Positions 11,264-13,659 of a stretch of 13,659 nucleotides of DNA are shown here, in pieces. Where the stretch lies: positions 1 to 13,659 of the forward strand of contig PQAQ01000097.1 in NCBI GenBank assembly GCA_003105305.1, read 5' to 3'. Position 1 is the first letter of the stretch; every line of letters begins with the position of its first letter. The position numbers were made by a program, and so were the translations under genes. The notes under the pieces were generated by a model that worked only from the letters and a program-made list of their open reading frames with translations, ran no database searches and was not told the DNA's origin. Source of the DNA: Candidatus Methylomirabilota bacterium (GTDB lineage: Bacteria > Methylomirabilota > Methylomirabilia > Methylomirabilales > Methylomirabilaceae).

Positions 11264-11656
11264 TCATTCTTCGGTCGCAGCGGAGTGCAGCAGGGCGCGC
11301 TTGACGGTGTCATGGAGCTGCTCGAAGCTGCAAGGCTTGGGCAGCACCGCGAACGCTCCCAACGCGTAGGCTCGCGCAGTGATCGCGTTGTTGAGGTATC
11401 CCTGGCCGGTCACGAGGACGACCCTGGTCCACGGACACGTTGTTCGCATCTTCTCCAGCAGTTCGATCCCGTTCATGCTCGGCATGACGACATCCGTGAT
11501 GACGAGATCATAGGAGGCGGAAGATTGTTGCAGGAGCCTCCACGCGAACAGACCATCGGGAGCCGTGGTCACGCGATACCCGCGTGCGCTCAAGAGGCCT
11601 GCCACGAGGGTCCGCGTACCCTCACTATCATCAACGACTAAAATTCCGCCGGTCAT
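11264..11656 (-). CDS. Stand-alone receiver-domain response regulator (CheY-like)
   Basis: A 130-residue protein made of one receiver domain and nothing else. Acidic pocket D9-D10, phospho-acceptor D55 in LVITDVVMP, switch Thr83 in VLVTGQG and Lys107 in LPKP are all present, so phosphorylation is chemically plausible. There is no DNA-binding or enzymatic output domain and no histidine kinase gene in the window. ATG at 11656 is preceded by a weak GGAATAGAG. It lies 53 nt downstream of the Spy-like gene on the same strand, which makes it the apparent last gene of the ECF sigma operon. It could act by protein contact, as CheY or Spo0F do, or serve a kinase encoded elsewhere. Assignment to the domain is firm; its link to the sigma system is inferred from position. 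Confidence 0.92.
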   Translation of the reverse strand: MTGGILVVDDSEGTRTLVAGLLSARGYRVTTAPDGLFAWRLLQQSSASYDLVITDVVMPSMNGIELLEKMRTTCPWTRVVLVTGQGYLNNAITARAYALGAFAVLPKPCSFEQLHDTVKRALLHSAATEE

Positions 11657-11709: not shown

Positions 11710-12201
11710 TTAATGCTCCTCGTCAAGCAGACTTCGCATCTCCGCGCGTAACTCTTTGAATCGCTGCCAGCGCTTTTTCGCCTTGGTGAGTTGCTCCGGA
11801 GTGAGCAGGTTACGAATCTCCGTGGCGGCTTGGAGCGACTCGTACGCCAGCGATTCCCGAAGCTTGCCGATCTGTTGAGTGAGTGGCGCGAGGTCTTCGG
11901 ACTTCAGTGGACCCGGCGTATAGAGCTTCTCAATCAACTGCTCGCGGGCTGCCCGGAATTGCCGTCGGATGGCATCAAACTTTGGACGATGGCTAGTTAC
12001 AAGTTGTTTGAGCTGCGCCTGCTGGGTGTCCGTAAGGTCTACCCCTTTAACGAGCAGCGGAAGGAAAAGTCCATCCTCTCCTCGCTCCCCTCGTATGGTG
12101 CGATCTCGGTACGGCTGGCTGGAGGCCGAGGTTGTCCAAAGACTCATCGCCAGGATTCCCATCAGAATCACTACACCTAGACGGTTCTTACGTGTGAGCA
12201 T
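11710..12201 (-). CDS. Spy/CpxP-like periplasmic LTxxQ-motif protein
   Basis: Periplasmic helical protein of 163 residues, similar to Spy/CpxP chaperones and to CnrX-type metal sensors. The signal peptide is residues 1-28 (basic NTRKN-like start MLTRKNR, then VVILMGILAMSL, cut near ASS). Mature sequence is a four-helix type with the two hallmark motifs LTDTQ (56-60) and LTPEQ (133-137), joined by charged helices. The tail has many Lys and Arg and ends LLDEEH. ATG at 12201 has GGAGG eight nt upstream; an open extension to 12381 lies inside the anti-sigma gene and was discarded. It lies 46 nt after the anti-sigma gene. In CnrX/ZraP/CpxP systems such proteins sense metals or misfolded proteins; no His/Met/Cys-rich metal site is evident apart from scattered His, so folding stress is at least as likely. 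Confidence 0.87.
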   Translation of the reverse strand: MLTRKNRLGVVILMGILAMSLWTTSASSQPYRDRTIRGERGEDGLFLPLLVKGVDLTDTQQAQLKQLVTSHRPKFDAIRRQFRAAREQLIEKLYTPGPLKSEDLAPLTQQIGKLRESLAYESLQAATEIRNLLTPEQLTKAKKRWQRFKELRAEMRSLLDEEH

Positions 12202-12247
12202 TTCCACATCCTCCCTGTGAATCGGTATCCACTGTGCCGTTGCGCGT

Positions 12248-12727
12248 CTATATCCCTTCCATATCGTCAACCGATCCGTCCTGTCCCTCCAGCTCTCCTC
12301 CATCTCGATCGGCTCGGTCAGAGGCGAGCGGAAGCATAGGCATCTCCCCGTCACCCCCTGCGGAGAGACCGGTAGACGCATCGGCTAGGAAGCGCAAGAT
12401 TTCGTTCTCGTCGTCAGTCCGTTGACGCTGCACATTGACATGGGCGTCACGCCACTGCCACACTCCGATGCTCGTCACCATCACTACCCCTGCCGCAAGC
12501 GTGGCGGCCAGCACTACCCGTCGCGACCAGGGTTCCCTGTCTTGGCGACGGGCAGGGAGTGCAGCCGGCAGCCGCTCCAGCGCCTGACCGATCAACTCGA
12601 GGTCATGGACCAACCGCCGGTACCGAGCCGTACAGTTGGAGCAGGTCTCAAGGTGGGTGAGATCCTCTACGGCGCCTTCATCGTAGTAGACCGACAGCAG
12701 GTTGTGATCTCGCAGACATTCCCTCAT
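12248..12727 (-). CDS. Zinc-finger anti-sigma factor, single-pass membrane protein
   Basis: Predicted anti-sigma factor of 159 residues. The N-terminal cytoplasmic domain carries the zinc-anti-sigma motif H-x3-C-x2-C as H25, C29 and C32 within THLETCSNC, followed by an amphipathic helix that would clamp the sigma factor. One membrane segment covers about 71-90 (VVLAATLAAGVVMVTSIGVW). The 65-residue outer part is acidic and unstructured-looking, rich in Asp, Glu, Gly and Ser. ATG at 12727 overlaps the sigma factor stop by ATGA, the usual coupled arrangement that keeps both proteins in balance. A longer open frame to 12835 runs inside the sigma gene and is not the start. Release of the sigma factor could follow proteolysis or zinc-site oxidation; the sequence does not say which. 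Confidence 0.88.
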   Translation of the reverse strand: MRECLRDHNLLSVYYDEGAVEDLTHLETCSNCTARYRRLVHDLELIGQALERLPAALPARRQDREPWSRRVVLAATLAAGVVMVTSIGVWQWRDAHVNVQRQRTDDENEILRFLADASTGLSAGGDGEMPMLPLASDRADRDGGELEGQDGSVDDMEGI

Positions 12728-13251
12728 GCGTCTTCTCCGAGCGTCTCCCGCAGACGCACTATCGCCCGAAACAAATGGCGCTTCACACTCCCGGTGCTCA
12801 GACCCAACGCCTCCGCCACATCCTGAGTCGGCCAAGCCTCAAGATGGCGCAGCACAAAGACCTCTCGCTGTCGCTGGGAGAGCTGCCGGAAGGCGCGCTG
12901 AATGCGATGGCGGGTTTCGCCGGCCAGCGCGGTAGCATCCGGCGTCGGGTCGTGGTCCACCAACTCAACCTCCTCGGCCATCTGGTCCCAGAGGCGCCAC
13001 CACGCCGCCCGCTGCCGATCGCGACAGGCGTTGATCGCGACTCGCGTAAGCCAGCGCCCCCATGCCATATCGCGGTCTGCCCTCCAGTCCCGCTCAACAA
13101 GCTTGAGAAATACCGTATGGACGACGTCCTCTGCCTCCTGGGGATTCCGCAGGACAAGGCGGCACACCCGCAGGAGACGCATCCCATGCTCACGGTAGAG
13201 TGCCTCACATTGCGCGCGCCACAACGAGCGATCGTCACGGTGTCCATCCAT
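12724..13251 (-). CDS. ECF-family RNA polymerase sigma factor
   Basis: Alternative sigma factor of 175 residues (group 4, extracytoplasmic function). Region 2, about residues 19-82, includes NPQEAEDVVHTVFLKL and the promoter-melting part RWLTRVAINACRD. A linker rich in acidic residues follows. Region 4, about 117-172, has LSQRQREVFVLRHLE and the helix-turn-helix DVAEALGLSTGSVKRHLFRA that reads the -35 element. There is no C-terminal extension. The start is ATG at 13251 with GTGAG eight nt upstream; a GTG at 13254 directly before it would add one residue and cannot be excluded. It is first in the operon with the anti-sigma, Spy-like and receiver genes. An ECF-type promoter directly upstream suggests autoregulation. 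Confidence 0.94.
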   Translation of the reverse strand: MDGHRDDRSLWRAQCEALYREHGMRLLRVCRLVLRNPQEAEDVVHTVFLKLVERDWRADRDMAWGRWLTRVAINACRDRQRAAWWRLWDQMAEEVELVDHDPTPDATALAGETRHRIQRAFRQLSQRQREVFVLRHLEAWPTQDVAEALGLSTGSVKRHLFRAIVRLRETLGEDA

Positions 13252-13270
13252 CACGTCATCTCACTCGTTA

Positions 13271-13300
13271 TAAACGAATAACCGACCCTGTCGGTTGACA
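13271..13300 (-). promoter_or_regulatory. Predicted ECF-type promoter of the sigma operon
   Basis: On the minus strand TGTCAACC (13300-13293) is followed after 13 nt by ATTCGTT (13279-13273), giving AACC-N16-CGTTTA. AAC in the -35 and CGT in the -10 at 16-nt spacing is the common ECF pattern. The expected RNA start, near 13263, leaves a leader of about 12 nt that still includes GTGAG. The spacer contains most of a 7-bp inverted repeat (AACCGAC-CCT-GTCGGTT, 13280-13296) that reaches into the -35, a possible operator. The identical arrangement recurs upstream of the divergent gene. Confidence 0.6.
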
Positions 13301-13406
13301 TGAGGTGCAGGTTGCTGCCTTTCAAGAGCCCTGAGCTCGCTGATCCATTGGACCTCCCATCATCTCTGATGTTTAGGGCATATCACCCGAACTGATTCGG
13401 CGTGTT

Positions 13407-13436
13407 TGTCAACCATCAGGAGGCACCATTCGTTAG
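13407..13436 (+). promoter_or_regulatory. Predicted ECF-type promoter of the divergent secreted-protein gene
   Basis: TGTCAACC (13407-13414) and ATTCGTT (13428-13434) are separated by 13 nt, matching the sigma-operon promoter in both boxes and in spacing; the shared form is AACC-N16-CGTT. RNA would start near 13443, leaving a leader of about 100 nt before the ATG at 13547. A short inverted repeat CCGAA-CTGA-TTCGG (13387-13400) lies just upstream of the -35. Confidence 0.6.
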
Positions 13437-13533
13437 TAAGAATGAAATGACGTATTGCATGAGGTAGAACTGAGTGTCACCTTTCGGCACCCCACACAGG
13501 CGGATGAGCTGCCGATACGCGGGGCCATTCCAC

Positions 13534-13539
13534 AGGAGG
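13534..13539 (+). promoter_or_regulatory. Shine-Dalgarno AGGAGG of the right-edge gene
   Basis: AGGAGG lies seven nt before the ATG at 13547. This near-optimal site fixes the start of the short visible reading frame. Confidence 0.8.
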
Positions 13540-13546
13540 AATTCGA

Positions 13547-13659
13547 ATGCGACGATTGGTAGCTGCAAGTGTAGTATTTGCATGCGTGACCGGCTTCAAT
13601 CTTTCCACAACGGCTACCACACCCGCCTTTGCAGAAGAGGGATGGAGCAGATCGACACC
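13547..13659 (+). CDS. Secreted protein, N-terminal part (continues past the right edge)
   Basis: Only 37 codons are visible. They begin MRRLVAASVVFACVTGF, continue through a Thr-rich stretch and reach AFAEEGWSRST, which is a signal peptide with a likely cut after AFA (residue 29). The product should therefore be periplasmic or outer-membrane. Nothing in the mature part identifies a family. It is the only confident plus-strand gene, divergent from the ECF sigma operon, and its predicted promoter matches that of the operon. In comparable loci such targets can be envelope proteases or chaperones, but that is only a guess here. Confidence 0.8.
   Translation, partial: MRRLVAASVVFACVTGFNLSTTATTPAFAEEGWSRST

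Follow-up and report, generated by a model that had tools for sequence, protein, structure and literature searches.

The sigma operon and its neighbours

Near the right-hand end of the window, that is, the whole stretch of 13,659 nt analysed here, lies a minus-strand operon headed by the gene of an ECF sigma factor with regions 2 and 4 (12724..13254; start codon GTG at 13254 or ATG at 13251). The predicted product of 176 aa matched Pfam Sigma70_r2 and r4/r4_2, gave no match for region 3 and ends directly after region 4, the arrangement of regions 2 and 4 alone by which ECF (group IV) factors are recognised. Its score for NCBIfam sigma70-ECF was above the cut-off.

The sigma stop codon is overlapped by the ATG of a gene for a putative anti-sigma factor (12248..12727, minus strand). 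The product carries a zinc-type H-x3-C-x2-C motif and, as judged by eye, a hydrophobic segment; residues H25, C29 and C32 are invariant among the four anti-sigmas of the genus. Since neither Pfam nor NCBIfam gave a match, the protein is referred to here as a candidate anti-sigma factor only. Its match to the counterpart in genome G012 continues past the TAG codon of the window (12191-12248), so that the C-terminal tail is shorter in the window.

The third gene (11710..12201, minus strand) encodes a periplasmic protein of the Spy/CpxP/CnrX/ZraP type, a candidate sensor. Both family profiles scored above their cut-offs (Metal_resist PF13801, 36.5 bits against 29.2; LTXXQ PF07813, 26.0 bits against 24.3), and Spy (3oeo) was matched by profile with an E-value of 1.9e-4. 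The AlphaFold model had a pLDDT of 74, with low values for residues 1-44. Its top 23 Foldseek matches in the PDB were CpxP, CnrX, Spy, ZraP and a Salmonella VirG-like protein at probabilities of 0.94-1.00, and the fold was accepted on this basis with weak E-values (best 0.014, none ≤0.001). The operon is followed by a single-domain response regulator (11264..11656, minus strand), and similar ORFs were seen by eye at the same place in loci L038 and L039. At the opposite end of the window an FtsH-like ATPase/protease frame (3-1157, by eye) is cut by the contig start.

On the plus strand, 13547..13659 holds the beginning of a gene, the predicted target of the sigma factor, that is cut by the contig end; it encodes the N-terminal portion of a secreted protein that is Spy-like (Metal_resist-type). 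The remainder of this gene forms the start of contig C154 (23-base overlap; Metal_resist 37.3 bits). The counterpart in G011 is also Spy-like, with a Metal_resist score of 28.9 bits lying just below the cut-off of 29.2.

A matched pair of probable divergent promoters

A pattern scan of the whole window located two sites of the form TGTCAACC-N13-ATTCGTT, both letter-perfect in the two boxes. Promoter P1 (13273-13300, minus strand; -35 box 13293-13300, -10 box 13273-13279) faces the sigma operon, and promoter P2 (13407-13434, plus strand; -35 box 13407-13414, -10 box 13428-13434) faces the divergent secreted-protein gene. The exact recurrence of the boxes at equal spacing on opposite strands, as described in the initial annotation, was therefore confirmed. 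No other match was present in the 13,659 nt, even at ≤3 mismatches. At that same tolerance, which is looser than an exact pair, shuffles of the whole window gave a mean of 0.28 matches, and two or more in 8 of 200. Within the 292 nt that separate the start of sigma from the divergent ATG (13255-13546), an exact, non-overlapping pair of the 8+N(10-20)+7 type arose in none of 1,500 dinucleotide shuffles, in keeping with the earlier claim that a chance match is very unlikely. Elsewhere in the assembly (2.1 Mb, 80% complete) there was no further match with 0 or 1 mismatch; three matches had 2 mismatches.

The distance from the end of the -10 box to the start codon is 21 nt for P1 if sigma starts with the ATG at 13251, or 18 nt with the GTG at 13254, and 112 nt for P2 (divergent ATG, 13547). 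AAC in the -35 element and CGT in the -10 element constitute the ECF promoter layout described in PMC8103513 and PMC3426412. Both motifs are present in P1 and P2, separated by an ECF-like gap of 17 nt, and together with the conservation reported below they bear out the ECF-promoter reading first proposed for these sites. Between their perfect boxes, P1 and P2 have very different spacers. A hairpin in the P1 spacer of the window was considered and dropped, as alignment by eye indicated that it is not kept in relatives. A literature search with TGTCAACC as a word returned, among the matches listed, no paper on ECF promoters by title.

Conservation within the genus

The closest database proteins carry the name candidate division NC10, the relatives in the phylum are Rokubacteria, and the genus is probably Methylomirabilis. 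The sigma gene is present in 4 of 15 genomes of the genus, and the anti-sigma gene in the same four. Comparison of the intergenic region revealed both sites in all three same-genus relatives with an intact sigma operon, the boxes being unchanged except that in G011 and G012 a single T of the P2 -10 box is replaced by C. Across the four genomes, 15 of 15 box columns were invariant in P1 and 14 of 15 in P2; of the 240 columns lying outside these 28-nt sites, 85 were invariant. The retention of P2 in 3/3 relatives supports the earlier proposal that the divergent gene is the likely target, its dependence on the sigma factor being predicted from sequence.

The 15 genomes were scanned with TGTCAACC-N13-AYTCGTT, which at ≤2 mismatches gave 109 matches against 71 for the reversed pattern. 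All 11 exact matches fell in the four sigma-bearing genomes, each of which had at least one, and none in the other 11 genomes: eight lie at sigma loci, two before lpxC and one before a broken second sigma copy. The Y of this pattern was added after G011 and G012 had been inspected at their divergent sites, so that the independent finds are G011:C268, G012:C67 and G012:C41 (exact) and G009:C173 (1 mismatch). Counting against the association, the three matches with 1 mismatch all occur in genomes without a detected sigma gene (G003, G007 and G009). Inexact matches (1-2 mismatches) were no commoner in sigma genomes than in the others (2.4 vs 2.7 per Mb), which suggests that the regulon is small; a broad regulon was rejected for the same reason.

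The broken second copy (L040, G012:C41) is a partial sigma gene with an internal TAG, and yet a perfect promoter site stands before it. G012 is listed with 4% contamination.

Sites upstream of lpxC

Exact sites precede lpxC in two sigma-bearing relatives (G011:C268 and G012:C67; the LpxC assignment was confirmed by Pfam for G012), and the 1-mismatch site of G009 also precedes lpxC. Neither sigma nor anti-sigma was found in G009, which is 83% complete. In the other 12 of 15 orthologous upstream regions, G000 and G010 among them, the best match had at least 5 mismatches. Among the four sigma-bearing genomes of the genus, lpxC carries the site in only two, and the window's own genome is not one of them, which counts against the proposed switch.

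In G012 (L089) the lpxC site and its 17 nt leader agree with the sigma P1 of the same genome at 43 of 45 positions, and the lpxC promoter looks like a copy of that sigma promoter. Alignments inspected by eye placed the lpxC sites of G012 and G009 in an insertion relative to G000, G001, G004, G005 and G006, with a housekeeping promoter resembling TTGCGA-N17-TACAAT downstream of the sites. Most other genomes have unrelated sequence at this place (G011 is misaligned there). The lpxC upstream regions of G010, G014 and G002 (L096, L100 and L103) have differing, palindromic-looking sequence at the same position, again by eye.

Distribution across the phylum

Sigma homologs were detected at E ≤1e-30 in 21 of 95 phylum genomes. 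From 24 homolog matches, 23 were used; the one left out was the broken second copy G012:C41, which has a perfect site. With the phylum pattern TGTCAACC-N13/14-YTCGTY, a sigma-facing site was found for 21 of the 23 homologs at ≤1 mismatch and for all 23 at ≤2, so that the regulon motif put forward as testable in the initial annotation has comparative support. A divergent site at ≤1 mismatch accompanied 7 of the 23; its absence from the remaining 16 sigma loci counts against a general pairing. Forty permuted patterns, applied at the 1-mismatch level, yielded at most 1/23 sigma-facing and 0/23 divergent sites. At more distant ECF loci (23-37% identity), a sigma-facing site at ≤2 mismatches was found in none of 22.

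In 23/23 loci sigma is followed by an open frame carrying H-x3-C-x2-C and, after it, a Spy-like frame, giving every sigma gene a putative anti-sigma gene next to it; the profile for the downstream frames was built from at least 5 of these 23 loci, which match by construction. The sigma factor of the window belongs to the ECF class on all features that were checked. A shorter pattern, GTCAACC-N14-YTCGTY, is present in 73 of the 95 genomes and is unspecific by itself; the phylum evidence is consequently carried by position and context and not by the short pattern. The boxes are common to the genus and Rokubacteria, the latter often having G at the first -35 position and C at the last -10 position.

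Divergent genes and other candidate targets

The gene facing the divergent site is Spy-like in the window's genome, G011 and G012, and elsewhere comprises a glycine-zipper plus a PEGA protein (G010), a glycine-zipper protein (G066) or an RND pump (G052), the second sigma of G062 being left out of these identifications. A glycine-zipper-like ORF, seen by eye, comes next after the Spy-like gene in G011 and G012, and in G012 is followed by a PEGA-like ORF of 19.5 bits, below the cut-off of 20.8. In G084, a member of the Rokubacteria, a divergent pair of sites stands on a contig other than that of sigma; the site with 1 mismatch faces a Spy-like gene, and the one with 0 mismatches a glycine-zipper cluster in which a small secreted protein precedes a glycine-zipper lipoprotein. 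The single Rokubacteria matches G062:C123, G073:C130 and G067:C115 had no clear target.

Spy-like and glycine-zipper genes were also surveyed for gene-facing sites, covering 24 of 59 Spy-like matches (24 of 30 loci) and 30 of 56 glycine-zipper matches. At ≤1 mismatch and ≤1000 nt, such sites were found for Spy-like genes in 2/6 cases in sigma genomes and 0/18 in others, and for glycine-zipper genes in 3/10 and 1/20, respectively. Allowing 2 mismatches, the glycine-zipper figures were 3/10 vs 3/20. Four of the six Spy-like and seven of the ten glycine-zipper genes examined in sigma genomes had no site at ≤2 mismatches, a result that counts against the proposed switch. Four minus-strand loci already included in the survey counts lacked a site at ≤2 mismatches, one of them having just 87 nt upstream. 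Judging from these counts in sigma and other genomes, the association of the site with genes outside the sigma locus is patchy.

One glycine-zipper gene with a 1-mismatch site (L223, G038:C85) belongs to a genome that is listed as 100% complete and has no sigma homolog at E ≤1e-30, an observation that counts against the association.

Interpretation of the paired sites

P1 and P2 are best explained as divergent promoters of the adjacent sigma factor, which in Methylomirabilota (NC10/Rokubacteria) would form a positively autoregulated envelope-stress switch whose regulon is small and patchy. We give this reading a probability of about 0.88. It is based on the observed sites, their spacing and conservation, their co-occurrence with sigma, and the gene content of the operon and of the targets.

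The 28-nt sites could instead be bound by a separate repressor or activator, rather than by RNA polymerase with the ECF sigma factor. Such a protein would suit the letters that the genus sites have in common outside the boxes, namely NNCAG in the spacer and CTC before the -10 box (each letter in at least 10 of 12 sites), as well as the similarity extending downstream of the site in G012. The NNCAG letters were not kept, however, in the 15 Rokubacteria sites compared, where the boxes largely were; these 15 were drawn from 19 sites, of which two were set aside for their N12 spacing and another two for having 2 mismatches, one of the latter being N12 as well. The AAC/CGT layout, the ECF-like spacing, the placement of P1 18-21 nt before the sigma start in the window and the tracking of the sigma gene by exact sites all make a separate regulator improbable.

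Neither is the likeness of the boxes readily attributed to a recent inverted duplication of one promoter region without shared regulation. The window pair combines perfect boxes with very different spacers, and over four genomes the boxes are nearly invariant while the flanks diverge, the ground on which neutral duplication was rejected as very improbable. In its favour, P1 and P2 of G010 differ at only 1 of 28 positions, and this case, together with the 43 of 45 positions matching between lpxC and sigma P1 in G012, indicates that copying of promoters does seem to happen. The proposal that TGTCAACC represents a housekeeping -35 box (TTGACA, contained within GGTTGACA) in reverse complement, making the sites sigma-70 promoters that read the other way, was rejected as having next to no probability, given that 13200-13600 contains no sigma-70-type pair (shuffle mean 0.4) and that the co-conserved partner box lies on the opposite side at fixed spacing.

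Proposed mode of action

For the ECF switch favoured here we infer sigma binding, sigma dependence, start sites, the release mechanism and the signal from the features described above. In the resting state, sigma would be held by the zinc-type membrane anti-sigma factor. Sigma would be freed by a signal from the envelope, probably misfolded protein or damage and possibly metal, which the Spy/CnrX-type periplasmic protein may help to sense. Free sigma would then fire both promoters: P1, so that sigma, anti-sigma and sensor are positively autoregulated, and P2, which would yield the second Spy-like periplasmic protein. The predicted outputs of P2 in relatives also include glycine-zipper and PEGA-type envelope proteins, and in some relatives sigma may additionally fire an added promoter before lpxC. 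Back-to-back switches of this kind appear to let a stress regulator turn on its own genes along with a neighbouring envelope-protection gene, which is a known kind of circuit.

For an ECF sigma factor of NC10/Rokubacteria, the phylum that includes the nitrite-dependent methane oxidisers, these results supply a promoter motif backed by comparison of genomes, together with a predicted regulon of small size. No paper on such an ECF system in NC10/Rokubacteria was found among the matches listed in a literature search. Envelope chaperones and lipoproteins, joined in some species by LPS synthesis, would be linked by a single switch, and the lpxC case is well suited to studying how a regulon acquires a further gene by what looks like promoter copying.

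Comparison with known systems

The ECF classification presented in PMC8103513 comprises 157 groups, 102 of them without functional insight. Literature searches for ECF factors with LTXXQ or with Spy/CpxP found no matching system by title. ECF41 promoters have the form TGTCACA-n16-CGTC and the regulon is very small (PMC3426412). The window system resembles ECF41 in the start of the -35 box (TGTCA), in the -10 core and in its very small predicted regulon, but differs in its -35 box as a whole (TGTCAACC), in the candidate anti-sigma factor with H-x3-C-x2-C and in a sigma factor without a large C-terminal extension; neither the ECF41 promoter form nor that extension was found.

In CnrYXH of Cupriavidus metallidurans, the ECF sigma CnrH, the anti-sigma CnrY and the periplasmic sensor CnrX are encoded together, as are sigma, candidate anti-sigma and a CnrX-fold periplasmic protein in the window operon. 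The window sigma also matched CnrH in sequence (E 2.2e-6). To our knowledge, CnrY has no zinc motif of the H-x3-C-x2-C kind, whereas the window anti-sigma does, so that it is not an anti-sigma of the CnrY type; membership of the Cnr type is not claimed because of this difference. Cnr gene order and targets differ from those of the window system, and a Ni/Co-type ligand set was not evident by eye in the periplasmic protein of the window. CnrY has been grouped with class II anti-sigmas, which embrace the outer surface of sigma (PMC8103513).

We tentatively suggest a Methylomirabilota ECF group, given no group name here, in which a zinc-type membrane anti-sigma is combined with a Spy-fold sensor and a second Spy-fold protein is driven back to back. 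In such a folding-stress feedback loop, Spy-type holdases might serve as sensor and output alike, and the regulon might grow by physical copying of the autoregulatory promoter; this wider proposal is a good deal less certain than the switch itself.

The -35 box of RpoE is given as GGAACTT in PMC8103513, distinct in sequence from TGTCAACC. At the level of the circuit, the predicted switch shares with E. coli sigmaE and Cpx the logic of an envelope stress response, periplasmic proteins of the Spy/CpxP type (by fold matches) and an LPS theme. Both E. coli systems, sigmaE (rpoE-rseABC) and Cpx (cpxP, spy), are envelope stress responses in which LPS biosynthesis is a theme. Spy and CpxP of E. coli are Cpx/Bae targets encoded outside an ECF operon, unlike the Spy/CpxP-type protein of the window, whose gene lies within the sigma operon.
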